A stretch of DNA of 64,000 nt from Craspedostauros australis (Eukaryota; Bacillariophyta; Bacillariophyceae; Mastogloiales; Achnanthaceae): assembly GCA_026770025.1 (NCBI GenBank), contig JAMXDE010000007.1, positions 2,976,001 through 3,040,000 on the forward strand, in the 5' to 3' direction. Every line of letters begins with the position of its first letter. Position 1 is the stretch's first letter. Below are positions 3,899 to 49,123 of this stretch, in pieces. Below the pieces are notes generated by a model. It was not told the origin of the DNA. It searched no databases and was given only the letters and a program-made list of their open reading frames with translations. Made by a program: the position numbers and the translations under genes.

Positions 3899-3905
3899 CA
3901 TTCGG

Positions 3906-17844: not shown

Positions 17845-17856
17845 CGTTTCGAAACG
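17845..17856 (+). promoter_or_regulatory. Palindromic 12-mer at the primer-binding position of element B
   Basis: CGTTTCGAAACG lies directly after the 5' LTR. It shares the frame CGTTTNNAAACG with elements A, C and D although the surrounding sequence is unrelated. There is no complement to a tRNA CCA end. Confidence 0.5.
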
Positions 17857-17925
17857 TTACGATTGAAATCCAACGTTTCCATCACCCACCAACACAGCAA
17901 CAAACACCACCACCACCACACCACC

Positions 17926-20900
17926 ATGAGCTCCTATCTCCGCAAGAACGACTGCGTCGTCATCTTCGACGGCAAGCGTTCCAGCTGGACAGGTTGGAGC
18001 ATCAAGTTCCTATCTCGCGCTGCGGGCAGGGGCCTTGAGGACCTGTATCTCATGGATCTAGACAAGGTGGAGGTGAAGCCAGCTCCCTTCGGCCCCAGCG
18101 CCCTCGTTTCCGATGTGAAGATCGAAGAGGGTGAGTCTATCGCGAAGAAGATAGCCTCGATGACTGCTGAGGAGAAGGAGGTATACAAGAATGGGCTGGC
18201 TAAGTGCGCGTTTGAAGAACTGGCCATGGCGATCAACCATGAAACTACGGAAGGCAATGTCGCCTTCATGGCTGTGGTGGGAACCAAGGGCGGGCCCACT
18301 GATAGTGGAGACCCACGCAAGGCGTGGAAGGCCCTTGAACGCATCTATGAGCAACGTACTGCGCCTGTCAAGGCAAAGTTGTTGGCTCAACTCAACGGGA
18401 TGCGGTTGAAGAAAGGCGAGCACCCAGACATGTTCCTGACCGAGATGGAAGTGCTGCGTAATCGCCTCAGTAGTACTGGTATCGAGATAGATATGCAACA
18501 GTACCACATGCTCGTACTCAACGCCCTCGGAAGGGAATACGAGACGGACATCAAGCTCTTGGAGCTCAAGTTCGACGGTATGGAGGATACCATGACCCTC
18601 GAAGACATCCGCAAGGCTGTCAGTGCCACCTACGACGGCCGATACCTCAAACTCGGCGGCAACAGACGTGAGAACAACAGTAACAAGGAAGAGACTGCAT
18701 TCGCTGCAGTAGGAGGCTTCAAAGGTCACTGCCGCAACTGTGGAGCCTACGGCCACAAGAAGGCAGATTGCCGCTCCGCCCCCAAGAAAGGCAACGGCAA
18801 GAACAAGAAGAGTGGCCAAGGAGACAACAACAGTAAGCCCAAGTTCAACGGGGAGTGTAAGTACTGCGGTAAGAAGGGACACAAGATCCTACAGTGCTTC
18901 AAGCTGAAGGCAGCCATGAAAGAGGCAGACTCGGCTAATGTGGCAACTGATGGGATGGAGGGAAATAACGACGTAGCTCTTGTGATGACAGACGAATTAA
19001 TTTGTGTGCCCACCTCGGAAAACACGAACGAATTGGAAAATGTGACCAACTTGTCTGTGAACACAGGCGAGACGAAAACACGCGACAACGACAGCAACTA
19101 CCAAGCTGACTCCAAGGTAATGGAGGACGTCGCCTTTGCAGCCATCGTCGAACAGACTGACACATCTCCCATTGTTTCCTTGAGACCACACAACGTCAAC
19201 AACAAGATGAGCAACTCCAACCAAGGACAAGAATCCTACTACGACGCAAGCCTCACCAACGAAGGGGCCACCGACACCGAGGACGTGGATGACGACATGG
19301 GCGATGCCAACCAAGGAGAAGCGGCACGTCGCCCTATCTTCAACTTCGCCCCAGAGCTCTCTCGTGTGGACCGCATGATCGGGAACTCGACAGGACTCGT
19401 CACCAACACGGCCTGGTGCCCTCTGTGCCTCAAGCGAGGACCACTCTACGCATGGTGCGTGGAATGCCCCCAAGTTCCTTTCTTCATCCAGCTCCACAAT
19501 GAGCCGCGTGGCAATGTGCCACCCAACGACGAAGAGCGCGCGGAGCGACGCACCAGACTTGAGAGAGCTGGCTCCCTCCGCAATGTGGTTCGAGCATCGC
19601 TCAGCAACGTGCTCAAAGCGGATGATGTGCGAAGTGAGCTCGCCTTACTGTGCTACGACGCTGTGGCCACCCACAATGGGGACCGCACTCCACTGATCGA
19701 GCCACGCACGGTGTACTTCAAACTGCACGAGATCGGGATGCACACCACACTGGGAGTGTGCCGCAACCCATGCAACATCAACAACAGCTTGGAATCCCGT
19801 CGCTTCGACCCCTTCCCCAGCGATCTGATTTCGCGCATGACACACCATGCCGCGAACTCCATCGTTTGGACCTACCATCCAGGTGATGGCGGAGTCCGAA
19901 ACCCAAGTCCGGAGCACTGGGTGCTGCCAATCTACTCTGAACGCGAAGAGCAACACGAAGTGGCAATGGTGGTCGGCAACACCGACAACGTCAGCGCAAG
20001 GCGCTCCTCCGTCGCACCGGACAACTACGAGGCCAACACCTGGTTGGGCGATTCTGGCGCATCGTGCCATCTCACCAACAACGATGAAGGGATGACCAAC
20101 GTTCGCGTCTCTGATCAAAATGTGAAGATCGGGAGCGGGCGCTTCCTCAAGGTGACCAAGGTGGGCGACAAGCGCATGACCGTCATGCAAAGAAACGGAA
20201 GGAAGTACAACGTGGTGCTCAAGTCGGTGAAGTACGTGCCCAAGTTGTGGGTTAATCTACTGAGCATCAACAAGGCTCTCGAAAGCGGATTCAACATCAG
20301 CAACCTCGGCGTCATCATGACCCTGAAGAAAGGCAAGGCCCGCATCACCTTTGACCGCATCATGGCAACTCATAGCGGGTTCGTTTGTGGAGTGACCATG
20401 GTGAGCAATACCAAGACGGACGACCAAGCTCATGTTGGCGTGTCAACCGTCGCACCAGTCGACATCAACACAATCCATAAAAAGTTAGGCCACGTTGACG
20501 CGTACACCATCTCTCGAACAGCAGGGAGGTACGGCTGGAACGTGACAGGAAAACTGAACGTGTGTGTTGACTGCGCGATTGGGAAATCGCGACAGAGACC
20601 GATGTCGAAAGCGACTCAACAACGAGCGAAAAGAGTCGGGGATCGATTGTTCATGGACACATCAAGCGTTCAGACACACAGCCTGGGAAGGGGCAAATAC
20701 TGGCTTCTTGTGATCGACGATTACAGTGACTACTGCTGGAGTTACTTCATCACAGAGAAAAGCAACGTGGGGTCGAAGATGCTTTTGTTGTTCCAATGGC
20801 TCGAAGCGAATCAGCGAGTAACGGTTCAAAATGTCAGATGTGATAACGCAGGAGAGAATCGTTCTGCAGAGAAACTCTTACTTAACAAGGGATTCGCCCC

Positions 20901-23577: not shown

Positions 23578-23673
23578 TGGAACAGAAGAGATGAGTGCAA
23601 GAGCGAGACAAGGGAGTGAGACGAGAGACGATTTGTGTGTGTGAGTGAGTATGGTGGTGCGACAATGGAAGGG

Positions 23674-24451
23674 TGTCAGGAATCGGGGGTACGACTTTGC
23701 AAAGATACCGTATTCTACCGCAGCTCCCATGAGGACTGACTGGAACCGGAATGGTATTAAGTGCAAAGATACCCCACGATTGCCGCAACCCCCAATAGCA
23801 TCTCCCAGACAAACCGCAACCTAGCAATCGACCAGTTGCACTCGGACAGCCCAATGGCCTTACCTGTCTTATGCGACATCCAAGCACCCTCATCCAGTGG
23901 CCTACTCGGCCATGTCCCGATAACGGTCGGGAACGGAGAGATCTATGAGGATGGCAACACACCAGCCCTGAGTGAATCAAATGAGCGCGACAACCAATAT
24001 ATCTGAACAAGTCGACGCGTCCCTGAGAACCTAATGTGAGAAAGCGAAACAGAGGCGATCCCTACTCACCCAAGACCACGATCCAGATGACAATAAGTCC
24101 CAAGCATCCAAAGGCAACCATCGCGATGACCGGAGGGAGGAACTGAAATGAAGTGGGACCAGTGAGGTGACAGGAGACCGAAGGAGAGGTACCTGCAGGT
24201 CTACAAGTATGAACTTGACGAATGTAGGTGCTCTCCAATCCTCAGCCAAGCAAACGATGAACCACGGTGAAAGCAAGATGAAGATGCAGACGAAAGGAGC
24301 CAAGCTAAAGGGTGTAACCTCGGGTGGCTACTGCGGATCATGCTTGTTGTGAATTGGAATTGAAAGGAGATGAGCATGTTGTACTCACAGTTCTAAAACG
24401 GTACAGACTGATAACAGATTAGTCTACTACTATAACCCCGGATTTCCAACA
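23674..24451 (+). repeat. 3' LTR of element B
   Basis: 778 bp, one difference from the 5' LTR by eye. It is preceded by the short purine tract AATGGAAGGG (23664-23673), the likely plus-strand primer, and followed by the second GATGTC. Confidence 0.95.
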
Positions 24452-24520: not shown

Positions 24521-26049
24521 GTTTGTTAACCAAAACACTTGGCGAAAATTCAGAGTCCTTTTTTCACACAAATTGTTTGTTGCTGTTGTTGGTCTCGATG
24601 GCAAATTATGAGACCAAGATTTGCATCTTGTCACACAATTTCCCGTCTCCATTTTGTATTCATACTTTACATTCTTTGTTCCACTTGTACAGTTCTCCTC
24701 ACCTGGTGTGCGACTGGCGTGCTGCTTTTCTTCTTTGCGTGTGCCACTGACATGCTGCTGTTCTTCGCACAGTTTCATAGCAGAGACTTAGTTGAAGTTC
24801 ATCTAAAGAACTGACTACTTTCCACTTAGTGCATCCCATGTCGCACCATGAAATTGTTTTTGGCGCGTCAATTTTGGAGCGAAACCTTCCGCCCACAAAT
24901 ACGGAAAACCCTATTCTCCCTCTTTCTCCCACTCTCACTCATGAATCACTGCTGACTCAAGCTCACTTGAGTCATCGAGATCTATGCACTCCGGGAACTA
25001 TATGCTCCTCTGAACTCACGTATTGCAGCTAGCCCTGATTCCATTGTCAGCCATGCCAGCTAACAACTCTACATGACAACAGCAAGGAGATCCTCCCTGC
25101 TTCAACATGAGCAGGGAATCCAACAAAAATTCCCATCGCCTGAAAACCTGTGTTCTCAACCATGACTTCAATCAAGATGTCAAGCCTTTGTACTCGAACA
25201 TAGAACAACTACCACAGATAGTGGAGAAAGAGAGAGAAAGGAAGAGATCATCCGTCCTCAACACTGAACCTCTAACGGTCAGTGCAGAGCCGCACTATCC
25301 AACTGAATATCGTTTCTTCATCCTACACCTCAAACTGATCAACTCATAATCCAGACTATTCAATATAACAAATAGCACAACTCAAGATCAGCACAACAAC
25401 TCTAATCTACTCATTGTCAACTACTACAATCTTCCCAGACGGTCATCCTTCGCCAACTGCAACCCCAGCCTCATTGAAACTGGCAGTCGGCGAGGCCTTC
25501 CCTTCCAGATCGTGTCACAACGTTACATGAAAATCCAACTAGACTATTAACTTTCATCGAGGTCTCCTTTGCTTTGACACTCGTATGCGCTCTTCTTCGG
25601 AGAGACATGCGGATAACGATCCCGCGAGCGCGAATAGCGATCGGTTTCTGTGGCTAGCACCGACACTGAGAATAGGTAGAGTGCTCCACAAATACTTCCG
25701 TCGATTCCACTGTCGTCGTATTCCACGTGGAACTTTGTGAGACCAACGACTATGTTGTGACACTTGATCTCAATTTTTTCGTTTCGCGATATGCGACAAA
25801 ACCCAGATGCGCCAACCAACAAGGAACAGCCACAAACACTGTTCATGTTCACGCTTGTGCATCGTCAGGATCACAGCTTCGGACAGGGAGGATCGCCATC
25901 ACCATCATTGCCATTGTTGCCAACATCGCTACCGCCATCAATATTACCACAGCTATCGTCAAGGCCGCCATCATCAACAACAGTGCCATGATGTCGCGGC
26001 ACATCATCTTCATTGCTGCGTGCGTGTCAGTCGCGTTGCTCATCACAAG
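24521..26049. other. Host flank upstream of the acyl-AMP ligase gene; no gene recognised
   Basis: Presumed promoter region of the minus-strand gene, followed by about 1.2 kb with only short frames lacking recognisable domains. A 101-codon minus-strand frame at 25547-25852 and a hydrophobic frame over 25849-26068 (Ile/Ala/Thr codon repeats) could be chance products. I found no RNA gene or repeat. Confidence 0.5.
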
Positions 26050-26843
26050 TGTCGAGATGTACATGTGAGTATATGTCGAGATGTACGTGTATATGTGCAT
26101 CGTTCACCCGTTATTCTCTCATACGCACTTGGACGGTATAACTACATTCGTGTTGATAGTATGCTGTGATTCGTCAGAATTACAGCAGAAATGGAACACA
26201 CGAAAATGAGCAGAATTTCTGGAGGAAATTTGCAAATAATGATTTCTGAGAATTAGAAGATCGTCCGTCCATCCATCAATGGTACCAAGAGAATCTCGAG
26301 GTACTTCCCAACTAAACCTCAGATGACGATATCATCTGACAGACTACTGCATCACCAATGGAACGTGACATCTGGAGAGCAGAAGGACGCCTACTGACGT
26401 TGACAGGATGTCATCATGTCACCACGTCGACATCTGTCTCCAAGTCAGAGCAGGAGGCGAAGATCCGAATGACCGAAGGACATCAGGATCATGGATACTG
26501 AAGGTGAACTTCAAATGGTAAGTACTCATGGAGTAGGAGCCAGTACTGAATGAACGGAGTGTCAAATGCGGAGCACGCATTGAACACGGAGTATCATGTA
26601 GCACGAGCACGCGATGTTGAGAGAGAGAGAGAATACAGAGAGGAGCGAGAGATAGTCTCGCGTACCGACTCATAGTCGGAGACCAAATCTACAAAACAGA
26701 TTGAAGCACTGAGAGCATTGTGCAAGAGAACGGGTGTACACCGAGAGGATCGGAGTAGCCAAGTAATGAAATAGCAAATGAACGACTATCAACCAATACC
26801 ATCTTCCACGATCGTAGGCTTCCAATAATGGAACTTGCCAACA
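26050..26843 (+). repeat. 5' LTR of element C
   Basis: 794 bp, TGTCGAG...CCAACA, homologous to the LTRs of A and D but carrying private changes (for example GAAAATGAGCAGAATTTC in place of the GGGGCAAG segment). Confidence 0.9.
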
Positions 26844-26855
26844 CGTTTATAAACG
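26844..26855 (+). promoter_or_regulatory. Palindromic 12-mer at the primer-binding position of element C
   Basis: CGTTTATAAACG directly after the 5' LTR, identical to A and D. Confidence 0.5.
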
Positions 26856-26924
26856 ATAGATCAGGGCGAGCCCGCGGATCGGATCGTGCAAGGAAGACGA
26901 ACATCATTCAAAGCAACAGGCTGA

Positions 26925-29900
26925 ATGAGCAAGGAAGAGGAATTGAAAGACATCCCTCTGTTCAATCTGGCTATCAAGCAAGAAGAAGGTGCGAGTGAGA
27001 CTCGACCACGAAAAGAGAAGGAAGCAGCCGCGGCTACTGTCCTATCAGGCGCATACGCAAGCGCAATCGACGAGACCAAAGAGGAACGGTCTGCAAGACT
27101 ACACCGTGAGGAGGAGAGGATTCTCAAGGCGGTCAAGCAAGAGGAGACTGGTGTGACAGAGAGCATTCGCACAGCCAAACAGGGTGAGAAAAGTGAGACA
27201 CCACCAGGAGGAGAATTTGTGAGGAAATCAATCCTCGCGAAACAACAAGCGAAAATCGAAGAATCGGCAACACAGAAACAGACGGAAACTAAGGGCGCGA
27301 GCGCACCAACAACGAAACAACGAACCAACATGGCGACATCAGCCAACATGAACAAGCGACGCATCAAGGCGCCGATGTTCAGCGGTGAACAGGAAGACTA
27401 CAGCGCATGGGAGTCCCAAGCGAAGGCATACGCTCGTGCACAGAAGACGAGAGACGTGATGTTGGGCAAGACTAAGGTGCCAACAGTGAGTGAGATCGCG
27501 GCAGCCACCGCTGAAGCCAAGGAAGCGATGGAAGAGATCTACGAGTTGGGATGCGACTGCTTCAGCGATCTGATCCTCATGATGGATGCAGAGAAAGGAA
27601 AAGGTAAGCAGGCCATCCAGTACATCAACCAATGCATCTCCGACGACTACCCCGAAGGAGACGCACACGGAGCGTGGAACGTTCTCGCGGAGAAGTTCCG
27701 ACCATCCGACGCGGTGACGAAGATCAAACTCAAGCGCCAATTCAACAACGAAAAGATGAAGAGAGACACGGACCCCGACATCTACATCACGCAACTCGAG
27801 AGTCTACGATCGCGTCTCCACGATGTCAAGTACGAGATCTCGGACGAGGAAATGGTCATGCAAATCCTCAGCACGGTGAGCAACGAGTACAGAACTCACA
27901 TCGTGAACTTCCAACACCAACTCACGTTCAATCCGGAACTGGTCACCATCAACTCGATCAGAGGAGTACTCCGTACTGCATACGCCACTCACAGAGGGGG
28001 CAAAGCATACGTCGACGACTTCCAAGACAGTAACACGAAGAGCAACGACACCGGCTTCACAAGCACCGGTAACTTCAAGGGTACTTGTCACAACTGTGGC
28101 GTGTATGGCCATAGATCCGCCGATTGCCCAGAACGCAAGAAACCGAACAACAAGAAAAACAACAACAACAACAACAAGATGAACGGAAAACGCAACAAGG
28201 GAACCGGCTTCAAGGGCAAGTGCAACTACTGCGGCATCTTCGGACATCGCGAGGCGGAGTGCCGAAAGAAGAAGTTCAACGAAAGCAAGAAGAACAACGA
28301 ACAAGCCAACGCGGCTACGGAAGGACACGACAAGAGCGGGCACGAGATGGTACTCTCTGCGAAAGACATGCCGCTCTGCATGTTGGTGTCCAACGACTAC
28401 ATCGAAGACTCCTTCTTCGATAACTTCGAGTACGTCGGGAGTGACGACGAAGTACAGGACGATGAGATCGTCCCGGAGTGGCTCAGTGAGGAGCCAATCA
28501 TCCACGAGGTGGATCCAAGACGCGAAGTGAGCTACGAATGCTGCTTCAACGCGCACGACCTGATCGGTTCATACGGCGACGAAGCTGAGATGGACGACGA
28601 GGCCAATGATAGCGACATCGAAGAGGCCATGAGCGATGACGACGACGACGACGACGAGGATGGCGTAAATGAAGACGATGAGGCGGACCGCGGCGCGGCG
28701 CCTCCTCCTCCAGCGGCGGGGAACAACAGATCGGGCATTTTCGACGAGGATGACAGCGACGAATCCGAGGACGGCAATCATCCAGACGACAGCTTCAATC
28801 CAAACGAGCGTGTCGTTTACCCAGGGAACATCGACTTCCCACCTATTGAGGATCCCAACAGCGTCGATTACCTCCTCCGTCACAGCACCATCCCAAATGC
28901 AACAGCAACAGCATTGATAATCCAAAAGCAGCTCATCTTTGACGCCGTAATGGAAGCGGGGATGCGAATGTTCCCAGGAACAACACGAGGAGCACTCATG
29001 CCAATATGGGTGAACATGATGGGATCCATCCTATCCGAGCACTTCGAATCAATCGAAGAGATCCTCGCCAATGCGATCATCATCAACCGCATACTGGAAG
29101 CGAACAACTCGGAAACGATCCCAGAGACGGATCTGCATTACATCCTTGGAGGATGCATGCGTGTACTCTTGCAAGAGCGATCACGCGTCCACCCATACGA
29201 TCCAGCCACAGGATCTCATCGGAACAGTACAATTCCATCGGACTACGCGCAACTACCCAATGACATGGATGACAGAGATCATCATCCTCCATACAACGAA
29301 GATGGAGTTCACGAAGACGACGACGACGGCAGCTTCAACGACGAGATAGCTGCAGCAGCCGTGGAGCAGCTCCACGAGCTGAGCACCAAGTACAAGGACA
29401 AGGTCAACAAGGACACCTGGCTCGCCGACAGTGGAGCTTCGTGTCACATCGTCAATTCAGACGCCGCTCTCTTCAACGTGCGGCACATCAAGTCCTTCGT
29501 CCAAGTGGGAGACAGCACGAAGCTGGACTCTCCCAAGATAGGATCCATTCGCTTGAAGGTCAAGCAGCGAGACAACACTGGCCACATCATCCGGCTCGAT
29601 GATGTGAAGTACACACCCAAGATGGCGGTGAACCTTTTCTCCACGAACAAGGCTCTGTACAACGGTTACCAGCTTGGTAACAACGGCATTCTGATGGACA
29701 TCATCAATGGATCCGGAACGAAGATCGTGTTCGATCGAGTCTTCCCCACATCCAACGGATTCATCACGGGAGTGCAGATGCATCCCATCATGCCATCGAA
29801 CGACGACAAGGCTTGCACAGCCATCGTCAAGAATCCATCCAAGGAGATCAGCGCGGTAAACCTGCATCGAATGCTCGGCCACGCACCACTCGAGACCATG

Positions 29901-32900
29901 AAGCGGACAGCCGCCCAATACGGATGGAAGATTATCGGCGAGATGCCGGTATGTCGCGACTGCGCGGTCGCGAACGCAAGAGTGAAGAACATTCCGAAGG
30001 CAACCATTCCCAGAGCAACTCGCCGTGGCGAACGGCTCTTCATTGACATTAGTTACACTAAACACATAAGCTTCGGAGAGAAACGCTACTGGACTCTGAT
30101 TGTGGACGACTGCATGGATCACTGCTGGAGTTTCTTTCTCAAGAACAAGAGTGACCAACCAGGATACATCAAACGATTCGTCCAGACGATCAAATCACAG
30201 ACTGGTGACCAACAGATCATCTTCCGAGGTGACAACAGCGGAGAGAACAAATCCACGCAGGATATTCTCATCGATGCAGGACTCAACGTGAAATTCAAAT
30301 TCATGGCATCGAACACGCCGCAACAGAACGGCAGAGTGGAACGCAAGTTCGCGTATCTCTACACCAAGATCCGCTCCATGCTCAACGGAGCACAGCTCGA
30401 TGAAGAGTATAGGCATGGCCTGTGGGCAGCAGCTGCTAGCACTGCCACCGCCATCGCCAACATCACCGTAGCGAAGAACCAGAAGGAGTCACCACATCAA
30501 CAATTCTTCGGCAACGATCCACCATATGCGGATGCACTCCGCACATTTGGAGAGGTAGGTGTTGTGAAGACCACCTACGGCGGGATCACCACCAAACTCA
30601 AGAACAGAGGAGAAGAGATGGTGTTCATCGGATATGCACACCACCATGCATCAGGGGTCTACAACATGTACAGACCATCAACCAAATCACTGGTCTGCTC
30701 TCGTGACATCAAGTGGCTCAACCAATCATACAGACAGTTCTGTGGCTGGGCACCAGCACCGAACATATCCATCGAAGCAGGAACGACGGATGCAGACGGC
30801 TTCACAACCATTGGACGGAAGGGAGCAATGCCAAAGACGGCAACGCGTCAGGCATCAGAAGCGAAGAGAGTATCTTTCGCTGACAGCAACAGCTATTACA
30901 TCCTATCGGATAGCGACGATGAGGATGATGAGGACGATGGAGCAGTAACCCAACTAATCCATAACGACGAGGAAGATCGGAGCGAATCCAACCATAAGGA
31001 TGACGAGATCACACCATCCGGCGACGAAGCCGACGATGATACAGGCGTCACTCCTCCGAACACACCAGCGAGGTCTACACATGACACACCATCCAGACCT
31101 CCACCAAGCAAACCAAGCAAGCGTGACATAGCTAGAAAGGAGAGGATCCGACGTCACGAAGCACAAGGCAGGAAGGGAGAAGCTAATCCCAAGCCAACTG
31201 CAGGGAAGAATATTCCCAGAGTTCTGCGTGAGCTCGCAGACTTCAATGAACGAGGACGAAAGGAAGAAGGCTATGAGAGTAAATCATCATCCAATGAGGC
31301 GAGTGACGAACTCAGCGACGAGATGATCGATGATTCCAACAACGAGACTACAGATGATGAAGAAATCATGGATGAAGGAGAGATCGAAATCATCCATCAT
31401 AGCACAACAGGACTATATGGGATGAACGCAATCATCACCAAGGCACCAGCGATTGACATCGGACTGTCGATGCAGGACGAGAACAAGGAACCAGAGAAGC
31501 ACATCGAACCAACAACATTCGATGGAGCCTTTAATCATCCAAATCCCATCCATCGAAAGGGATATCGAGCAGCCATCAAAAAGGAATTCAACTCCATGGA
31601 TACACGCAAGGTGTACAACAAGATCAAACGAGACGCCATTCCACGCGGCCACAGATGCTGCAAGTGCAAATGGGTCTTCAAGCTGAAACGCGACGGCACA
31701 CATCGAGCGCGACTTGTTGCATGTGGCTACTCACAAATCGCAGGAGTAGACTTCCAAGAGCATTACTCACCCGTCATCCATGACGTGACCTATCGGGTCA
31801 TGATGGTGATCATGCTAATCAAGAAGATGGACTGCGCACTCATCGATGTCGTAACGGCATTCCTACATGGAGACCTCGACGAGGAGATCTACATGAACTG
31901 TCCCAACAGGATGGATCATCAACCAGACGAAGCCCTGACCCTACACAAGCCAATCTACGGACTTGTGCAGAGCGCCAGGCAATGGTTCAAGATGTTGGTA
32001 TCGACCCTCAAGAATATCAACTTCGAACAGAGCGCAGCAGACCCGTGCCTGTTCTACAGGAAGACGAACGAAGGAAGCATGATCGTGGCCATCTACGTGG
32101 ACGGTTGCTTCTGTTGCGGAGACTCCAAGGCACTGGAGACATTCCTGAAGGACATCCAAGGCAGCAAATTCAAGGTAACAATCGAGCGCGGACTCGGAGA
32201 CTACCTCAGCTGCAACATTGAACTGAACCATGACAAGACTAGAGCGACATTGCGTCAACCACATCTCATCCGACACCTCATCGAAGAGTTCGGAACCAAG
32301 GTTGAGAAGATGCAACGCTACGGGACACTGGGAACCCTGGGTCAAATCATCGTACGACCATCCGAAGATAACAGACTACAGAAGGTCGGACCGGAAGAAC
32401 ATGCCGAATACCGCCGAGGCGTCGGTATGCTACTCTTCCTCATCAAGCACTCGCGACCAGATATCGCGAACCCTGTGAGGGAACTCTCCAAGGTATTGAT
32501 CGGGCCCACCAAGGCCGCAATGAAGGAGATGTATCGGATCATCAAGCATGTGATCGATACAAAGAACTATGGATTGAAGATCCATCCAGCGCGTCCAGAC
32601 GACGACGGCTGGGACATGGAGCTCTTCTGCGATAGCGAATATGCAGGAGACAAGAACACGAGAATCAGCGTAGGGGGATTCATCCTATACCTGTGCAAGG
32701 TGCCAATCCTTTGGCGATCCAAGGCACAGAAGGCCGTCACACTCAGCTCATCCGAAGCAGAATACGTTGCCCTTTCCAAAGCGGCAAAGGAAATCTTCTT
32801 CGTTGTGCAGCTACTCGAAAGTGTGGGCATCCCAGTGAAGACACCGATCAAGGTCCGCGTGGACAACATCGGAGCGATCTTCATCGCCAAGAACCCATCA

Positions 32901-33092
32901 ACATCCCAACGATCGCGGCACATCGACGTGCGCCATCACTACGTGAGGAACATGGTAATCAACAAAACCATCGAAATCATTTTCGTCAAATCCGAGCAGA
33001 ACACAAGCGACGGATTCACCAAGAACATCAAGGCCGACTTGCAACGTGAACATGAGAAGTCGTACCTTGACACATCGAGAACATTCGAATGA
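26925..33092 (+). CDS. Ty1/copia Gag-Pol polyprotein, element C (2055 aa), RT motif YVDG
   Basis: Same domain order as the A polyprotein: Gag, two CCHC knuckles, acidic insert, protease WLADSGAS, HRMLGH, DDE integrase, RT and RNase H. The second aspartate of the RT YVDD box is glycine (codon GGT at 32103-32105, residue 1727), which removes a metal-binding residue required for polymerase chemistry, so this copy should be unable to reverse transcribe on its own. RNase H keeps SSSEAEYVA. Other changes cluster in the insert (residues ~590-790, for example SVDYLLRHSTIPN) and in the integrase-RT linker. The intact 2055-codon frame could still give Gag, integrase or dominant-negative products. Confidence 0.93.
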   Translation: MSKEEELKDIPLFNLAIKQEEGASETRPRKEKEAAAATVLSGAYASAIDETKEERSARLHREEERILKAVKQEETGVTESIRTAKQGEKSETPPGGEFVRKSILAKQQAKIEESATQKQTETKGASAPTTKQRTNMATSANMNKRRIKAPMFSGEQEDYSAWESQAKAYARAQKTRDVMLGKTKVPTVSEIAAATAEAKEAMEEIYELGCDCFSDLILMMDAEKGKGKQAIQYINQCISDDYPEGDAHGAWNVLAEKFRPSDAVTKIKLKRQFNNEKMKRDTDPDIYITQLESLRSRLHDVKYEISDEEMVMQILSTVSNEYRTHIVNFQHQLTFNPELVTINSIRGVLRTAYATHRGGKAYVDDFQDSNTKSNDTGFTSTGNFKGTCHNCGVYGHRSADCPERKKPNNKKNNNNNNKMNGKRNKGTGFKGKCNYCGIFGHREAECRKKKFNESKKNNEQANAATEGHDKSGHEMVLSAKDMPLCMLVSNDYIEDSFFDNFEYVGSDDEVQDDEIVPEWLSEEPIIHEVDPRREVSYECCFNAHDLIGSYGDEAEMDDEANDSDIEEAMSDDDDDDDEDGVNEDDEADRGAAPPPPAAGNNRSGIFDEDDSDESEDGNHPDDSFNPNERVVYPGNIDFPPIEDPNSVDYLLRHSTIPNATATALIIQKQLIFDAVMEAGMRMFPGTTRGALMPIWVNMMGSILSEHFESIEEILANAIIINRILEANNSETIPETDLHYILGGCMRVLLQERSRVHPYDPATGSHRNSTIPSDYAQLPNDMDDRDHHPPYNEDGVHEDDDDGSFNDEIAAAAVEQLHELSTKYKDKVNKDTWLADSGASCHIVNSDAALFNVRHIKSFVQVGDSTKLDSPKIGSIRLKVKQRDNTGHIIRLDDVKYTPKMAVNLFSTNKALYNGYQLGNNGILMDIINGSGTKIVFDRVFPTSNGFITGVQMHPIMPSNDDKACTAIVKNPSKEISAVNLHRMLGHAPLETMKRTAAQYGWKIIGEMPVCRDCAVANARVKNIPKATIPRATRRGERLFIDISYTKHISFGEKRYWTLIVDDCMDHCWSFFLKNKSDQPGYIKRFVQTIKSQTGDQQIIFRGDNSGENKSTQDILIDAGLNVKFKFMASNTPQQNGRVERKFAYLYTKIRSMLNGAQLDEEYRHGLWAAAASTATAIANITVAKNQKESPHQQFFGNDPPYADALRTFGEVGVVKTTYGGITTKLKNRGEEMVFIGYAHHHASGVYNMYRPSTKSLVCSRDIKWLNQSYRQFCGWAPAPNISIEAGTTDADGFTTIGRKGAMPKTATRQASEAKRVSFADSNSYYILSDSDDEDDEDDGAVTQLIHNDEEDRSESNHKDDEITPSGDEADDDTGVTPPNTPARSTHDTPSRPPPSKPSKRDIARKERIRRHEAQGRKGEANPKPTAGKNIPRVLRELADFNERGRKEEGYESKSSSNEASDELSDEMIDDSNNETTDDEEIMDEGEIEIIHHSTTGLYGMNAIITKAPAIDIGLSMQDENKEPEKHIEPTTFDGAFNHPNPIHRKGYRAAIKKEFNSMDTRKVYNKIKRDAIPRGHRCCKCKWVFKLKRDGTHRARLVACGYSQIAGVDFQEHYSPVIHDVTYRVMMVIMLIKKMDCALIDVVTAFLHGDLDEEIYMNCPNRMDHQPDEALTLHKPIYGLVQSARQWFKMLVSTLKNINFEQSAADPCLFYRKTNEGSMIVAIYVDGCFCCGDSKALETFLKDIQGSKFKVTIERGLGDYLSCNIELNHDKTRATLRQPHLIRHLIEEFGTKVEKMQRYGTLGTLGQIIVRPSEDNRLQKVGPEEHAEYRRGVGMLLFLIKHSRPDIANPVRELSKVLIGPTKAAMKEMYRIIKHVIDTKNYGLKIHPARPDDDGWDMELFCDSEYAGDKNTRISVGGFILYLCKVPILWRSKAQKAVTLSSSEAEYVALSKAAKEIFFVVQLLESVGIPVKTPIKVRVDNIGAIFIAKNPSTSQRSRHIDVRHHYVRNMVINKTIEIIFVKSEQNTSDGFTKNIKADLQREHEKSYLDTSRTFE

Positions 33093-33112
33093 CCGAATGC
33101 ACACAGGAAGGG

Positions 33113-33907
33113 TATCGAGATGTACATGTGAGTATATGTCAAAATGTACGTGTATATGTGCATCGTTCACCCGTTATTCTCTCATACGCACTTGGACGGT
33201 ATAACTACATTCGTGTCGATAGTATACTGTGATTCGTCAGAATTACAGCGGAAATAGAACACACAAAAAGGGGCAAGATTTCTGGAGGAAATTTGCAAAT
33301 AACGATTTCTGAGAATTAGAAGATCGTCCGTCCATCCATCAATGGTACCAAGAGAATCTCAAGGTACTTCCCAACTAAACCTCAGATGACAATATCATCT
33401 GACAGACTACTGCATCACCAATGGAACGTGACATCTGGAGAGCAGAAGGACACCTACTGACGTCGACAGGATGTCAACATGTCACCACGTCGACATCTGT
33501 CTCCAAGTCAGAGCAGGAGGCGAAGATCCGATGACCGAAGAGGATCAGCATCATGGATACAGGAGATGAACTTCAAATGACGAGTACTCATGGAGTAGGA
33601 GCCAGTACTGAATGAACGGACTGTCGAATGCGGAGTACGTATCGAACACGGAGCATCGTGTGGCATGAGCACACGATGTTGAGAGAGAGAGAGAGAATAC
33701 AGAGAGGAGCGAGAGAGCATCTCGCGTACCGACTCATAGTCGGAGACTGAATCTACGAAACAGATCGAACCACCGAGAGCATTGGGCAAGAGAGCTGTTG
33801 TACACCGAGAGGATCGGAGTAGCCAACTAATGAAATAGCAAACGAACGACTATCAACCAACACCATCTTCCACGATCGTAGGTTACCGTGAGCGGAACTT
33901 GCCAACA
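33113..33907 (+). repeat. 3' LTR of element C
   Basis: 795 bp, starts TATCGAG (non-canonical second base) and ends TTGCCAACA. It shares many variants with the 3' LTR of A (AAATAGAACACACAAAAAGG, CATCCATC, GACAATATC) rather than with its own 5' LTR. Confidence 0.9.
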
Positions 33908-34201: not shown

Positions 34202-34239
<38 letters not shown>

Positions 34240-34448
34240 GAAACCTGTCTGTTCTGAAAATTATGTCCGTGCAGGGCGGTCATTTGCTCACCGTGGATCC
34301 TACGCGTGGTTTGTGCGGTACCGTCTGTCCATCGACACTCATCGTTCGGATTCGGCCAGATTCGGGAATTGGCACTAAATCTGCACACGAGAGGGTCTCG
34401 GATCCGTGAACCAACCAGAAATGTACCGACTCAGTCTCATTGACAAAA
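33908..34448. other. Unassigned spacer with a 35-nt G homopolymer
   Basis: Sequence between element C and the TRIM. No gene recognised. An uninterrupted run of 35 G lies at 34204-34238; it could fold as a G-quadruplex or be an assembly or consensus artefact. Confidence 0.6.
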
Positions 34449-34654
34449 TATCAGCACAAAATCGAATAGTGCTAAGTACGTTACTCCCGTAGCCCCCATT
34501 ATCTATAAATTTCACTTGTGTTCGGATCAGCAATCGCATCGCCTGTAGCTCAACGGTAGAGCACCAGTAATTCTCACTGAGGTTCCGGGTTCGAATCCCG
34601 GCATGGTACTTTGCTTTTGCTCTCCCCTCGTGATTTTTCGATAGTGCTCTAATA
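34449..34654 (+). repeat. 5' LTR of the TRIM
   Basis: 206 bp. TATAAAT at 34504-34510 lies about 37 bp before the tRNA-like region (34541-34609). Runs of T at 34615-34618 and 34634-34638 could stop pol III inside the LTR. It ends in CTCTAATA, not CA. Confidence 0.88.
34541..34609 (+). ncRNA. tRNA-like sequence with pol III A and B boxes (LTR copy 1)
   Basis: A box TAGCTCAACGG at 34546-34556 and B box GGTTCGAATCC at 34588-34598 match the internal pol III promoter consensus. The D arm (GCTC/GAGC), a 4-bp anticodon stem (CAGT/ACTG) with loop AATTCTC, and a perfect 5-bp T arm (CCGGG/CCCGG) can be drawn. The acceptor stem pairs poorly and position 33 is A, not U, so this is a tRNA-derived element rather than a working tRNA gene. 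TTTT follows at 34615. Confidence 0.75.
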
Positions 34655-34667
34655 GATTAACAGTCGC
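34655..34667 (+). promoter_or_regulatory. Primer-binding site complementary to the tRNA-Asn anticodon arm (TRIM)
   Basis: GATTAACAGTCGC directly follows the 5' LTR. Its reverse complement GCGACTGTTAATC equals positions 28-40 of a tRNA-Asn(GUU) anticodon arm (loop CTGTTAA). This fits a half-tRNA primer, as known for Drosophila copia with initiator tRNA-Met. Confidence 0.7.
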
Positions 34668-34892
34668 AGCTAGTTCTACATCGCTGAGTTAGGACAACCT
34701 TGCACAACACGCCTTCGTGGGCGCGTTGCGATCACCGGATTTCGACCCAGTCTCACACTTGTCTGCTACGGCAGCACTCCCACTTCGTCTGGCAGTATTA
34801 GCCACCCAGCAATGAGGGTGCCCCGAGATGGGGAGACGCGGGAGATGACAACTTTCCGTCATAGTGCTCTTGAGCAGGTGGTCCACGGTCGT

Positions 34893-34904
34893 AGCGTAGG
34901 GGAG
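34893..34904 (+). promoter_or_regulatory. Polypurine tract of the TRIM
   Basis: AGCGTAGGGGAG immediately before the 3' LTR, sharing GGGGAG with element F at 62020-62025. Confidence 0.65.
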
Positions 34905-35110
34905 TATCAGCACAAAATCGAATAGTGCTAAGTACGTTACTCCCGTAGCCCCCATTATCTATAAATTTCACTTGTGTTCGGATCAGCAATCGCATCGCCT
35001 GTAGCTCAACGGTAGAGCACCAGTAATTCTCACTGAGGTTCCGGGTTCGAATCCCGGCATGGTACTTTGCTTTTGCTCTCCCCTCGTGATTTTTCGATAG
35101 TGCTCTAATA
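34905..35110 (+). repeat. 3' LTR of the TRIM
   Basis: 206 bp, identical to the 5' LTR as far as I can read, which indicates a very recent insertion. Confidence 0.88.
34997..35065 (+). ncRNA. tRNA-like sequence with pol III A and B boxes (LTR copy 2)
   Basis: Exact copy of 34541-34609, 456 bp downstream. Transcription from this copy would run into flanking DNA. Confidence 0.75.
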
Positions 35111-35828
35111 CAAAAACACACAAGAAGAAGAACAACGCAAAAAACGCACTCACAAAGGCCCTATTAGAGATAGCTTGGCCATTTTCATCACCTCATAACT
35201 TTATAACCAAAGGCTGGACTCACTGTTTAGCACCTGGTCCTTATTACCAATTTGTTAAAGTATATATGGTTAGATTTTAGTCTCCATAGGAGCCCACTTT
35301 TTCAGAATCCTGCCGTGGTCGTACGGTCATTGGCTAACGTGGGTCTTTTGGTAGTCCTCAAATTAAAAATCGGCACGAACGTACTACTACTGCGCTCAGC
35401 AATAATTTACAACACAGTAACGCTGTTTGTTGCCGAATGAGAGTTTTTTGTTGTCACGACCAGTTCTTTTGGGTCTCCGGTAATTCAACTTTTTCATTAG
35501 TTTCGAGATTTGAACATCCCCGACTCAGCCATTGTCATGTCCACGCTCGCCCTCACGAAACACAAGTCGGCTGCCATCATCACTTTGCCCAATACAATTG
35601 ATTGACTCCTTGCCTTGACCAACCCTACTATTATGAAATTCATGCTTCTAAATTGTGTAGCTTCAGCTTCATAGTGCATCTGCCTTCGTTTTTGCAGATC
35701 TCAGGTACCTGCATTGGAGTGCGTCTGGATTCAGTTTCCTTCTTTGCTTGTTTGCGTTTGGGTTTCGAGTTCATCATTTCTCGTTTGGCTTTCTGCGTTG
35801 CTTCGTATCGGGTATCGTAGAGCTTGGC
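35111..35828. other. Spacer without recognised gene
   Basis: About 0.7 kb of AT-rich sequence between the TRIM and the mariner-like pseudogene. Only short frames, no recognised motif. Confidence 0.5.
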
Positions 35829-42057: not shown

Positions 42058-42850
42058 TGTCGAGATGTACATGTGAGTATATGTCAAAATGTACGTGTAT
42101 ATGTGCATCGTTCACCCGCTATTCTCTCATACGCACTTGGACGGTATAACTACACTCGTGTCGATAGTATACTGTGATTCGTCAGAATTACAGGGGAAAT
42201 GGAACACACGAAAAGGGGCAAGATTTCTGGAGGAAATTTGCAAATAACGATTTCTGGGAGAATCAGAAGATCGTCCGTCCATGCATCAATGGTACCAAGA
42301 GAATCTCGAGGTACTTCCCAACTAAACCTCAGATGACGATATCATCTGACAGGCTGCTGCATCACCAATGGAACGTGACATCTGGAGAGCAGAAGGACGC
42401 CTACTGACGTCGACAGGATGTCAACATGTCACCACGTCGACAGCTGTCTCCAAGTCAGAGCAGGAGACGAAGATACGATGACCCATGAAGATCATGGATA
42501 CTGAAGGTGAACTTCAAATGGTAAGTACTCATGGAGTAGAAGTCAGTACTGAATGAACGGAATGTCGAATGCGGAGCACGCATCGAACACGGAGTATCGT
42601 GTAGCACGAGCACACGATAGTGAGAGAGAGAGAGAGAGAATACAGAGAGGAGCGAGAGAGGATCTCGCGTACCGACTCATAGTCGGAGACCGAATCTACG
42701 AAACAGATTGAAGCGCCGAGAGCATCGGGCAAGAGAACGAACGGACACCGAGAGTATCGGAGTGCCAACGTAATGAAATAGCAAACAGACGACTATCAAC
42801 CAACACCATCTTCCACGATCGTAGGTTACCGTGAGCGGAACTTGCCAACA
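42058..42850 (+). repeat. 5' LTR of element D
   Basis: 793 bp, TGTCGAG...CCAACA, with a GA microsatellite near 42622-42639. A block from about 42311 to 42480 (TACTTCCCAACTAAACCT onward) has a counterpart in the LTR of unrelated element F. Confidence 0.92.
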
Positions 42851-42862
42851 CGTTTATAAACG
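42851..42862 (+). promoter_or_regulatory. Palindromic 12-mer at the primer-binding position of element D
   Basis: CGTTTATAAACG, as in A and C, directly after the 5' LTR. Confidence 0.5.
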
Positions 42863-42932
42863 ATAGATCAGGGCGAGCCCGCGAATCGTATCGTGCGAGG
42901 AAGACGAACATCATTCAAGAGCAGCAGGCTGA

Positions 42933-45900
42933 ATGAGCGAGGAAGAGGAATTGAAAGACATCCCTCTGTCCAATCCGACTATCAAGAGAGAAGAAGGTGC
43001 GAGTGAGACTCCATCACGACAAGAGAAGGAAGCAGCCGCGGCTACTGTCCTATCAGGCGCATACGCAAGCGCAATCGACGAGACCGAAGAAGAACGGTCT
43101 GCAAGACTACACCGCGAGGAGAAGAGCATTCTCAAGGCGATCAAGCAAGAGGAGACTGGTGTGACGAAGAGCATTCGCACAGCCAAACAGGGTGAGAAAA
43201 GTGAGACACCACCAGGAGGAGAATTTGTGAGCAAATCAACCCTCGCGAAACAACAAGCGAAAATCGAAGAATCGACAACACAGAAACAGACGGAAATCAA
43301 GGGCGCGAGCGCACCAACAACGAAACAACGAACCAACATGGCGACATCAGCCAACATGAACAAGCGACGCATCAAGGCGCCGATGTTCAGCGGTGAACAG
43401 GAAGACTACAGCGCATGGGAGTCCCAAGCGAAGGCATACGCTCGTGCACAGAAGACGAGAGACGTGATGTTAGGCAAGACCAAGGTGCCAACAGTGAGCG
43501 AGATCGCGGCAGCCGCCGATGAAGACAAGGAAGCGATGGAGGAGATCTACGAACTGGGATGTGACTGCTTCAGCGATCTGATCCTCATGATGGATGCAGA
43601 GAAAGGAAAAGGTAAGCAAGCCATCCAGTACATCAACCAATGCATCTCCGACGACTACCCCGAAGGAGACGCACACGGAGCGTGGAACGTTCTCGCGGAG
43701 AAGTTCCGACCATCCGACGCAGTGACGAAGATCAAACTCAAGCGCCAATTCAACAACGAAAAGATGAAGAGAGACACGGACCCCGACATCTACATCACGC
43801 AACTCGAGAGTCTACGATCGCGTCTCCACGATGTCAAGTACGAGATCTCGGACGAGGAAATGGTCATGCAAATCCTCAGCACGGTGAGCAACGAGTACAG
43901 AACTCACATCGTGAACTTCCAACACCAACTCACGTTCAATCCGGAACTGGTCACCATCAACTCGATCAGAGGAGTACTCCGTACTGCATACGCCACTCAC
44001 AGAGGGGGCAAAGCATACGTCGACGACTTCCAAGACAGTAACACGAAGAGCAACGACACCGGCTTCACAAGCACCGGTAACTTCAAGGGTACTTGTCACA
44101 ACTGTGGCGTGTATGGCCATAGATCCGCCGATTGCCCAGAACGCAAGAAACCGAACAACAAGAAAAACAACAACAACAACAACAAGATGAACGGAAAACG
44201 CAACAAGGGAACCGGCTTCAAGGGCAAGTGCAACTACTGCGGCATCTTCGGACACCGCGAGGCGGAGTGCCGAAAGAAGAAGTTCAACGAGAAGAAGAAG
44301 GCCGACGAACAGGCCAACACAGCAACGCAAGGACACGACAAGAGCGGGCACGAGATGGTACTCTCTGCGAAGGACATGCCGCTCTGCATGTTGGTGTCCG
44401 ACGACTACATCGAAGACTCCTTCTTCGATAACTTCGAATACGTCGGGAGTGACGACGAAGTGCAGGATGATGAGATCATCCCGGAGTGGCTCAGCGAGGA
44501 GCCAATCATCCACGAGGTGGATCCAAGACGCGAAGTGAGCTACGAATGCTGCTTCAACGCGCACGACCTGATCGGTTCATACGGCGACGAAGCTGAGATG
44601 GACGAGGCCAACGATAGCGACATCGAAGAGGCCATGAGCGATGACGACGACGACGACGCCGACGAGAACGGCGCAGATGAAGACGACGAGGCGAACCGCG
44701 CCGCGGCGCCTCCTCCTCCAGCAGCGGGGAACAACAGATCGGGCATCTTCGACGAGGATGACAGCGACGAATCCGAGAACGGCAATCATCCAGACGACAG
44801 CTTCAATCCAAACAAGCGTGTCGTCTACCCAGGGAATATCGACTTCCCACCAATCGATGATCCCAACAGGTCCAATTACCTCCATCGTCATGACACCGTC
44901 CCATATGCAACAGAAACAGCATTGGTGATCCAGAAGCAACTCATCTTCGATGCAGTGATGGAAGCAGGAGTGAGCCTGTTCCCAGGAGTCGCACAAGGAG
45001 TGCTGAGACCAATATGGGTGAACATGATGGGATCGATCCTATCCGAGAACTTCAGATCGATCGAAGAGATTCTGACCAATTCGGTTGTGATCAATCGCAT
45101 ACTGGAAGGGAACGACTCGGAAACGATCCCAGAGACGGATCTACATTACATCCTTGGAGGATGTATGCGCGTACTCTTACGCGAACGACCACGCGTCCAC
45201 CCATACGATCCAGCCACAGGATCACATCGAAACAGCACTATTCCATCGGACTACGCGCAACTACCCGACGACATGGATGACGGAGACCATCATCATCCAT
45301 ACAACGAAGATGGAGTCCACGAAGACGACGACGACGGCAGCTTCAACGACGAGATAGCTGCGGCAGCCGTGGAGCAACTCCACGAGCTGAGCACCAAGTA
45401 CAAGGACAAGGTCAACAAGGACACCTGGCTCGCCGACAGTGGAGCTTCGTGTCACATCGTCAACTCGGACGCCGCTCTCTTCAACGTGCGGCACATCAAG
45501 TCCTTCGTCCAAGTGGGAGACAGCACAAAGCTAGACTCTCCCAAGATGGGATCCATTCGCTTGAAGGTCAAGCAACGAAACAACACTGGCCACGTCATCC
45601 GGCTCGATGATGTGAAGTACACACCCAAGATGGCGGTGAACCTTTTCTCCACGAACAAGGCTCTGTACAACGGTTACCAGCTTGGTAACAACGGCATTCT
45701 GATGGACATCATCAACGGATCGGGAACGAAGATCGTGTTCGATCGAGTCTTCCCCACATCCAACGGATTCATCACGGGAGTGCAGATGCATCCCATCATG
45801 CCAACAGACGACGACAAGGCTTCAACAGCCATCGTCAAGAATCCATCCAAGGAGATCAGCGCGGTGAACCTGCACCGAATGCTCGGCCACGCGCCACTCG

Positions 45901-48900
45901 AGACCATGAAGCGAACGGCCGCTCAATATGGATGGAAGATTATCGGCGAGATGCCGGTATGTCGCGACTGCGCGGTCGCGAACGCAAGAGTGAAGAATAT
46001 TCCGAAGGCAACCATTCCAAGAGCGACTCGCCGAGGCGAACGGCTCTTCATTGACATTAGTTACACTAAACACATAAGCTTCGGAGATAAACGCTACTGG
46101 ACCCTGATCGTGGACGACTGCACGGATCACTGCTGGAGTTTCTTTCTCAAGAACAAAAGTGATCAACCAGGATACATCAAACAATTCGTCCAGACGATCA
46201 AGTCACAGACTGGTGACCAACAGATCATCTTCCGAGGTGACAACAGCGGAGAGAACAAATCCACGGAGGATATTCTCATCGATGCAGGACTCAACGTGAA
46301 ATTCAAATTCATGGCATCGAACACGCCGCAACAGAATGGCAGAGTAGAACGCAAGTTCGCGTACCTCTACACCAAAGTCCGCTCCATGCTCAACGGAGCA
46401 CAGCTTGACGAAGAGTATAGGCATGGCCTGTGGGCAGCGGCTGCTAGCACTGCCACCGCCATCGCCAACATCACCGTAGCGAAGAACCAGAAGGAATCAC
46501 CACATCGACAATTCTTCAGCAACGATCCACCATATGCGGACGCGCTCCGCACGTTTGGAGAGGTAGGTGTTGTGAAGACCACCTACGGCGGAATCACCGC
46601 CAAACTCAAGAACAGAGGAGAAGAGATGGTGTTCATCGGATATGCACACCAACACGCATCAGGAGTCTATAACATGTACAGACCATCGACAAAGTCACTC
46701 ATCTGTTCACGTGACATCAAGTGGCTCAACCAATCATATGGACAGTTCCGTGGCTGGGCACCAGCACCGAACATATCCAATGAAACAGGAATAACGGACG
46801 CAGACGGCTTCACAACCATCGGACGGAAGGGAGCAACGCCAAGGACGGCAACGCGTCAAACACCGGAAGCGAAGAGAGTATCTTTCGCTGACAGCAACAG
46901 ATACTACATCCTATCAGACAGCGATGATGAGGATAATGAGGACAACGGAGTAGTGACTCAAGTAATCCGAAATAACGAGGAAGATCGGAGCGAATCCAAT
47001 CATGAGGATGATGAGATCCTACCATCCGGCGACGAAGTCGATGATGAGACAGGTGTCACCCCTCCAAATACACCAGCGAGGTCTACACATGACACACCAT
47101 CCAGATCTCCACCAAGCAAACCAAACAAGCGTGACATAGCTAGAAAGGAGAGAATCCGACGTCACAAAGCACGAGGCAGGAAGGGAGAAGCTAATCCCAA
47201 GTCAACTGCAGGGAAGAGTATTCCCAGAGCTCTGCGCGAGCTCGCAGACTTCAACGAACGAGGTCGAAAGGAAGAAGGCTATGAGAGCGATCCATCATCC
47301 AACGAGGTGAGTGACGAACTCAGCGACGAGATGATCGACGACTCCAACAACGAAACTACAGATGATGAAGAAATTGAAGACGAAGATGAAGAGATCGAGA
47401 TTATTCATCATAGCACAACAGGACTATACGGAATGAATGCAATCATTACCGAATCACCAGCGATCGACATCGGACTGTCGATGCAGGACGAGAACAAGGA
47501 ACCAGAGAAGCACATCGAACCCACAACGTTCGACGGAGCCTTCAATCACCCAGATCCTATCCATCGAAAGGGATATCGAGCAGCCATCAAGAAGGAGTTC
47601 GACTCTATGGATACACGCAAGGTGTACAGCAAGATCAAACGAGACGCCATCCCACGCGGCCGCAGATGCTGCAAGTGCAAATGGGTCTTCAAGCTGAAGC
47701 GTGACGGCACACATCGAGCGCGGCTCGTTGCATGTGGGTATTCACAAGTCGCAGGAGTAGACTTCCAAGAGCATTACTCACCCGTCATCCATGACGTGAC
47801 CTATCGGGTCATGATGGTGATCATGCTAATCAAGAAGATGGACTGCGCACTCGTCGATGTCGTAACGGCATTCCTACATGGAGACCTCGACGAGGAGATC
47901 TATATGAACTGTCCCAACGGGATGGATCATCAAGCAGACGAAGCCCTGACCCTACACAAGCCAATCTACGGACTTGTGCAGAGCGCCAGGCAATGGTTCA
48001 AGATGTTGGTATCGACCCTCAAGAATATCAACTTCGAACAGAGCGCAGCAGACCTGTGCCTGTTCTACAGGAAGACGAACGAAGGAAGCATAATCGTGGC
48101 CATCTACGTGGACGATTGCTTCTGTTGCGGAGACTCCAAGGCACTGGAGACATTCCTGAAGGACATCCAAGGCAGCAAATTCAAGGTGACAATCGAGCGC
48201 GGACTCGGAGACTACCTCAGCTGCAACATCGAACTGAACCATGACAAGACTAGAGCGACATTGCGTCAACCACACCTCATCCGACATCTCATCAAAGATT
48301 TCGGAACCAAGGTTGAGAAGATGCAGCGCTATGTGACACCGGGAACCCCGGGTCAAATCATCGTACGACCATCCGAAGATAACGGACTGCAAAAGGTCGG
48401 ACCAGAAGAACATGCCGAATATCGCCGAGGCGTCGGTATGCTACTCTTCCTCATCAAGCACTCGCGACCAGATATCGCGAACCCTGTGAGGGAACTCTCC
48501 AAGGTATTGATCGGGCCCACCAAGGCTGCAATGAAGGAGATGTATCGAATCATCAAGTATGTGATCGATACAAAGGACTATGGATTGAAGATCCATCCAG
48601 CGCGTCCAGACGACGACGGCTGGGACATGGAGCTCTTCTGCGATAGCGAATATGCAGGAGACAAGAACACGAGAATCAGCGTAGGAGGGTTCATCCTATA
48701 CCTGTGCAAGGTACCAATCCTTTGGCGATCCAAGGCACAGAAGGCCGTCACACTCAGCTCATCCGAAGCAGCATACGTTGCCCTTTCCGAAGCGGCAAAG
48801 GAAATCTTCTTCGTCATGCAGCTACTCGAAAGTGTGGGCGTCCCAGTGAAGACACCGATCAAGGTCCGAGTGGACAATATCGGAGCGATCTTCATCGCCA

Positions 48901-49103: not shown

Positions 49104-49110
49104 CCGAATG

Positions 49111-49123
49111 CACACAGGAAGGG
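49111..49123 (+). promoter_or_regulatory. Polypurine tract of element D
   Basis: CACACAGGAAGGG immediately before the 3' LTR. Confidence 0.7.

Follow-up and report, generated by a model that had tools for sequence, protein, structure and literature searches.

What kind of element carries a tRNA-like promoter in both of its LTRs, which polymerase would transcribe it, and whose proteins would move it? The locus that raises these questions lies in a 64,000-nt stretch of the genome of the diatom Craspedostauros australis (the window, by which we mean the whole stretch analysed). Two 206-bp LTRs, 34449–34654 and 34905–35110, are 100% identical and spaced 456 bp apart, and the A box, B box, TATAAAT and T runs of the 5′ LTR recur as a second set 456 bp downstream. 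The element they delimit, 662 bp at 34449–35110, has a CAAAA duplication on both sides, and no ORF of at least 200 aa overlaps either the whole element or its 250-bp internal region. An earlier sequence-only reading had described it as a miniature LTR retrotransposon (TRIM) by its 206-bp LTRs, CAAAA duplication, primer site, polypurine tract and lack of coding capacity, all of which were confirmed. The features of the element, and those of a related Copia element elsewhere in the window, are as follows.

34444–34448, no strand: left copy of the 5-bp target site duplication (TSD) CAAAA, from the window sequence
34449–34654, plus strand: 5′ LTR, 206 bp, TATCAG...CTCTAATA, a direct repeat with copies elsewhere in the genome
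34504–34510, plus strand: TATAAAT of the 5′ LTR, 35 bp upstream of position 1 of the tRNA-like unit, by LTR alignment positions
34539–34611, plus strand: tRNA-like unit with D and T arms intact and acceptor stem lost (Rfam match 34544–34603)
34546–34556, plus strand: A box TAGCTCAACGG, by LTR alignment
34588–34598, plus strand: B box GGTTCGAATCC, by LTR alignment
34615–34618, plus strand: T4 run just 3′ of the tRNA-like unit, a predicted Pol III terminator
34634–34638, plus strand: T5 run, a second predicted Pol III terminator
34655–34904, plus strand: internal region, 250 bp, non-coding, with no ORF of at least 200 aa (21 genome matches)
34655–34668, plus strand: primer binding site (PBS) GATTAACAGTCGCA, complement of tRNA-Asn(GTT) positions 27–40, anticodon arm
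34898–34904, plus strand: polypurine tract (PPT) AGGGGAG abutting the 3′ LTR (Copia elements have GGGGAG in the corresponding position)
34905–35110, plus strand: 3′ LTR, a copy of the 5′ LTR, with tRNA-like match 35000–35059, T4 at 35071–35074 and T5 at 35090–35094
35111–35115, no strand: right copy of the 5-bp TSD CAAAA, from the window sequence
56326–56339, plus strand: the same PBS preceding a Copia frame, by 14-mer match
56610–62000, plus strand: ORF of 1796 aa for a Copia polyprotein related to the candidate helpers (RVT_2 in 60309–61508)

Other retrotransposons lie elsewhere in the window. A 7.9-kb Copia family is present in three window copies (3112–10933, 26049–33907 and 42058–49910; 94–98% identical), with one open frame of 2055–2056 aa in every copy, and a second Copia occupies 17067–24451 with 778-bp LTRs that are 99.9% identical and a 1921-aa frame. 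The 5′ LTR of this second Copia overlaps the start of an AMP-binding (FadD21-like) ORF at 12606–17159, whose best named match is from Seminavis robusta (54% over residues 100–600). The plastid RbcL of the same assembly has its best named matches, at 92–93%, in Pleurosigma, Paralia and Sellaphora, the first at 93%. About 200 bp upstream of the TRIM, at 34204–34238, lies a run of 35 G.

Both LTRs were said to hold an A box and a B box within a tRNA-like fold, and a covariance-model scan bears this out: the Rfam tRNA model matches 34544–34603 and 35000–35059 with 35 bits each (E 2e-5; gathering score 29). The match spans model positions 6–65 of 71 and lacks positions 1–5 and 66–71, so that the D, anticodon and T arms are present and a full acceptor stem is absent; the anticodon arm is weak. 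ARAGORN calls no complete tRNA gene with an acceptor stem in the window, and an Rfam scan of 34300–35300 at E values up to 1 returned tRNA only, with no 5S rRNA sequence in the LTR. The unit is a tRNA-derived putative promoter and not a tRNA gene.

Searches of the 74.8-Mb genome place the element in a family with some 20 full-length copies and LTRs at roughly 128 sites. The expectation that further copies would exist was borne out at every level: the whole element gave at least 18 matches including the window copy (95–100% over 658–662 bp), the internal region gave 21, and a search with a 28-mer taken from the tRNA-like part, allowing up to 3 mismatches, hit 128 sites, and none with the reversed control. 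A subset of all copies was examined, the window copy and 37 further loci: a perfect 5-bp TSD flanks 37 of these 38 insertions, the exception being a truncated old copy (L020), and this rejects the idea, raised with the sequence-only reading itself, that the 456-bp repeat is an assembly duplication. Solo LTRs are present among the insertions, and the empty sites of two insertions (L010 and L006) are seen in paralogous Copia copies, where the 5 bp are present once. The LTR pair shows no difference at all in 16 of the 20 copies with two LTRs, and the remaining pairs differ at 8 (L014), 6 (L017), 2 (L018) and 1 (L019) positions; L018 and L019 are two-LTR copies split by other DNA. Judged by these LTR pairs and insertion sites, the family is young and recently active, as had been proposed. 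Two of the sampled loci, L033 and L034, represent a single insertion that occurs twice: their left flanks are 100% identical and their right flanks 96%. The DNA that splits L019 (C13:1590730–1597588) is probably a DNA transposon, a 5.4-kb insert whose inverted ends look similar by eye and which is accompanied by a duplicated GTA.

The tRNA-like unit is retained across this family. Its score reaches the Rfam gathering score in 35 of the 38 insertions and falls below it in three (L030, L033 and L034), and, on a point by which the sequence-only reading could have been refuted, no A-box or B-box column is intact in fewer than 35 of the 37 insertions compared. This is no significant excess of conservation: with one LTR from each of 37 insertions (L034 dropped as a duplicate), variable columns number 4/22 in the boxes versus 44/184 elsewhere (Fisher p 0.79), and 12/72 in the whole tRNA-like part versus 36/134 elsewhere (p 0.12). 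The family is too young for this column test to give evidence of selection on the A and B boxes. The old copy L020 still scores 30.5 bits despite CpG-type changes in both boxes. In this copy, the oldest, four CpG sites of the unit have been lost through C-to-T and G-to-A changes, a pattern resembling methylation decay.

As to origin, the nearest of 21 tRNAs compared are Arg-TCT and Thr-AGT, with 51 and 52 of 73 positions identical. The tRNA genes examined numbered 25, made up of 20 of 63 listed rows plus five tRNA-Asn genes, and contigs C83, C89 and C90 and further nuclear rows lay outside this sample, so the parent tRNA may be missing among those compared. Contigs C83 and C89 agree in their series of tRNA matches, score for score, and are probably an organelle genome assembled twice. 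A search for other families with a B box followed after 30–60 nt by the same PBS returned 21 sites, all of this TRIM. An exact 26-mer of the A-box region matched no prokaryote genome and two IMG/VR viral contigs (L125 and L126). These were rejected as carriers of the TRIM: they are phage-type tRNA arrays, one with 27 tRNA genes in 14 kb and the other with 19 in 8 kb, in which the matching 26-mer sits in a stretch with no ARAGORN tRNA call.

The primer site ties the TRIM to Copia elements of the same genome. Its 14 bases, the first of the internal region, are the exact complement of positions 27–40 of the host tRNA-Asn(GTT), in the anticodon arm; of six pattern matches, five are tRNA-Asn(GTT) genes. 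The genome contains the 14-mer 293 times, counting those in tRNA-Asn genes and in TRIM copies, and its reversed control nowhere. At 30 loci, two of them TRIM copies, the bases preceding it end in TAACA, TATCA, TATTA or TAATA. Ten longer loci were fetched; four show an LTR pair within the fetched stretch, and all four have the PBS as well as GGGGAG before the 3′ LTR. The ends of the TRIM LTR, TATCAG..TCTAATA, resemble TATTAG..TCTAACA in two of these (L094 and L098) and TATCAG..TCTATCA in L099, an LTR whose first bases lie outside the fetched stretch, and the LTR of L100 starts TAATAA. The Copia RVT_2 domain was present in all three pieces tested. No Rfam tRNA match was found in any of the ten Copia-region loci, so the tRNA-like unit is not common to the helpers seen here, and because the PBS is common to several Copia families it does not single out one helper. 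The candidate Copia helpers of this genome are presumably of the diatom CoDi kind. A further repeat family with the same tRNA-Asn PBS was met at L058, L065, L066, L067, L077, L086 and L101, with the LTR end GGGCTCTATTA; at L101, two long frames of 1229 and 1701 codons lie 3′ of the PBS, with no LTR pair in 9.5 kb.

At three loci (L018, L127/L128 and L020), TRIM sequence is joined to three Copia families exactly at the PBS. In L018 the order is TRIM LTR, PBS, Copia-Y internal region, Copia-Y LTR, PBS, TRIM internal region and TRIM LTR, flanked by the TSD TCCAG, with an uninterrupted Copia-Y stop-to-stop frame of 1849 codons; the outer TRIM LTRs have 2 differences, both within 3 bases of the 3′ end of the 5′ LTR, beside the junction. 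In L127/L128 a TRIM LTR with both boxes intact is followed by the PBS and a Copia-X internal region with broken frames, the Copia similarity stopping after about 3.7 kb. L020 has an L094-type Copia LTR (76–77% identical to L094 and L102), next a PBS with one changed base, and then an old TRIM internal region and 3′ LTR. Since one side is truncated in both L127 and L020, only L018 is a complete, TSD-flanked hybrid. By count, 2 of 21 TRIM-LTR/PBS junctions run into Copia internal regions and 2 of 21 TRIM internal regions are preceded by a Copia LTR. We also considered L127 as an autonomous Copia owning a tRNA-like LTR, and rejected this from the other Copia-X copies: of the 23 other genome places 20 were fetched; the TRIM LTR finds no match in any of these 20, and in 19 of them an exact PBS lies 3′ of the Copia-X LTR.

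During reverse transcription, plus-strand strong-stop DNA (U3-R-U5-PBS) pairs with the minus strand via the PBS, and strong-stop annealing between co-packaged TRIM and Copia templates would thus yield joins exactly at the PBS. We infer that the joins are what strand transfer within a shared particle would be expected to leave behind, and that they represent independent events. The last 3′ bases of TRIM LTRs vary (AATA, TTTCA, ATTA and CATG, each with a correct TSD). In L018 the ATCA beside the PBS equals the Copia-Y end, so some of these LTR-end variants may stem from PBS exchange.

The elements of the LTR stand in the right order for a Pol III unit, TATAAAT, A box, B box and T4 run, and the distance of the TATA, estimated earlier at about 37 bp, measures 35 bp from position 1 of the tRNA-like unit. 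Such spacing would suit a Pol II TATA box and, equally, the positioning of TFIIIB. With one LTR taken from each insertion, the T4 run is retained in all 38 and a T5 or longer run in 34. Real tRNA genes of this genome have a T4 or longer run within 25 nt downstream in 24 of 25 cases, and 13 of the 25 have no run longer than T4 within 40 nt. T4 is probably a working terminator in this genome, and from the T4 and T5 runs after the B box, together with the T4-only tRNA genes, Pol III should mostly stop within the 5′ LTR, short of the internal region, which speaks against Pol III as the source of the genomic RNA. The next T4 after the 5′ LTR terminators is at 35071, in the 3′ LTR; the 432 nt between without a T4 are not significant as a T-run-free interval (P 0.30). 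Nor is CAA within 12 nt upstream a general feature of tRNA genes here (12/25, versus 11/25 at −60 to −49). Pol III is a candidate polymerase for the predicted LTR promoter, as is Pol II starting at the TATA box; the TRIM/SINE hybrid with two possible polymerases that the sequence-only reading envisaged is a proposal.

What can be seen directly at this locus and its relatives are the LTRs, the TSDs, the family with its recent insertions, the PBS and PPT shared with Copia, and the hybrids joined at the PBS. We conclude with good confidence that the element is a young diatom TRIM of the Helenus (TRIMp3) kind, with a predicted tRNA-derived Pol III promoter in its LTRs, and that it is probably carried by Copia. 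Copia proteins would package and copy the TRIM RNA, a 3′-truncated tRNA-Asn(GTT) would prime minus-strand DNA at GATTAACAGTCGCA, plus-strand DNA would start at AGGGGAG, and the Copia integrase would insert the product, leaving the 5-bp TSD. Occasional annealing of strong-stop DNA, via the shared PBS, to a co-packaged Copia minus strand, or the reverse, would give rise to the hybrids. Pol III would start just upstream of the tRNA-like unit and make mostly short RNA up to the T4 or T5 of the 5′ LTR. The full-length RNA could come from rare Pol III read-through that ends at the matching 3′-LTR T runs, in which case the tRNA-like unit would serve as R, or it could be a Pol II transcript from the TATA box. 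The boldest form of the proposal, which we offer tentatively and would not yet favour, is a Pol III-driven ‘LTR-SINE’, in which the copied RNA is the read-through, R is the tRNA-like unit, several Copia carriers are used through the shared half-tRNA-Asn primer, and the hybrids record two RNAs reverse-transcribed in one particle.

An ordinary Pol II TRIM, in which the tRNA-like unit is the inert relic of an insertion and transcription starts from the TATA near the tRNA-like 5′ end, is a serious possibility, if one we rate below even. The TATAAAT stands at a fitting distance, the A and B boxes are not significantly better conserved than the rest of the LTR, and the T4 and T5 runs would halt Pol III inside the 5′ LTR. 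A TATAAA with at most 1 mismatch at −42 to −24 occurs in just 3 of the 25 tRNA genes, against a shuffled mean of 5.3 (a count of at least 3 came up in 940 of 1000 shuffles). The tRNA genes examined thus do not typically carry a strict TATA, which also speaks for Pol II. Against an inert relic, however, most copies keep the columns of both boxes, the D and T arms and the T4 run, and L020 retains its tRNA score. The upstream regions of the tRNA genes are AT-rich (71–75% at −48 to −31 over 25 genes), which matches a TFIIIB-type context, and none of five Copia LTRs, presumably driven by Pol II, has TATAAA, TATATA or TATAAT (the L099 LTR taken without its first bases); the TATA of the TRIM may therefore have arrived with the tRNA-derived unit.

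The hybrids, too, can be read in another way, as products of recombination at the PBS between chromosomal copies or Copia DNA circles, in which case they would tell us nothing about the helper. A one-LTR Copia circle recombining with a chromosomal TRIM at 15 bp of PBS would, on this model, produce the L018 order. We consider this unlikely: the shared stretch is 14–15 bp, which counts as short for ectopic recombination, three separate loci and three Copia families are all joined at the PBS, and L018 combines a 5-bp TSD with outer LTRs only 2 bases apart. A SINE moved by a LINE, its direct duplication arising by chance, would account for a tRNA-derived unit with A and B boxes, but is refuted to near certainty by the two LTRs, the 5-bp TSDs, the solo LTRs, the PBS and the PPT. 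The predicted terminators give the polymerase question a sharper form, setting a short RNA that would end at 34618 or 34638 against a full-length RNA that would end at 35074 or 35094.

TRIMs with tRNA-like LTRs were described as Helenus (TRIMp3) from fungi, animals and the lycophyte Selaginella (Kojima 2024, PMC10886601). That description gives a TSD of 4 bp in animals and 5 bp in fungi and the plant. Most fungal families, among them a lineage that uses tRNA-Asn-GTT, are primed by an anticodon-loop half-tRNA, and Copia is proposed as helper of the fungal elements on the strength of similarity in the PBS and internal region; Pol III promoter function is stated as unproven (PMC10886601). The diatom element is Helenus-like in being under 1 kb and non-coding, in its PBS, PPT and 5-bp TSD (as in fungal and plant Helenus), in its box A of the form TRGCY/YGG (TAGCTCAACGG) and box B GGTTC (GGTTCGAATCC) in both LTRs, in its half-tRNA anticodon-loop primer and likely Copia helper, and in that the tRNA-like unit and PBS share no complementary run of 5 or more bases, as Kojima 2024 reports (PMC10886601). 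The assignment rests on these structural features. It differs in its host, Table 1 of PMC10886601 covering fungi, animals and Selaginella only, and in the Copia hybrids found here, which may set it apart from Helenus as described there. The words diatom, stramenopile and oomycete are absent from the main text of that paper, and we found no earlier report of such a TRIM in a diatom or stramenopile among search listings of the open-licence PMC literature. With a diatom member, the range of tRNA-LTR TRIMs would reach a further branch of eukaryotes, and its occurrence suggests that capture of Pol III promoters by TRIMs recurs; the PBS-joined hybrids offer more direct evidence for Copia helpers, from more than one family, than the PBS and internal similarity available for Helenus.

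Cassandra likewise carries a Pol III gene with terminators inside a TRIM LTR; it differs in that the gene is 5S rRNA where ours is tRNA-like, in its PBS (TGGTATCAGAGC), and in its occurrence in vascular plants (PMC7215508). The CoDi Copia elements described from diatoms belong to the same superfamily as the probable helper type and, unlike the TRIM, are autonomous and coding (Maumus 2009, PMC2806351). For complexes formed during reverse transcription, a TSD and near-identical outer LTRs are among the criteria used (Sabot and Schulman 2007, PMC1950507), and L018 resembles the template-switch complexes of Triticeae in its three LTRs, two internal regions, 5-bp TSD and near-identical outer LTRs; those complexes pair like elements and homology in R is invoked for them, whereas L018 joins a TRIM and a Copia at the PBS (PMC1950507). 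The tRNA-LTR TRIM as such has been known since 2024; the present case adds a diatom host and, above all, PBS hybrids with three Copia families.
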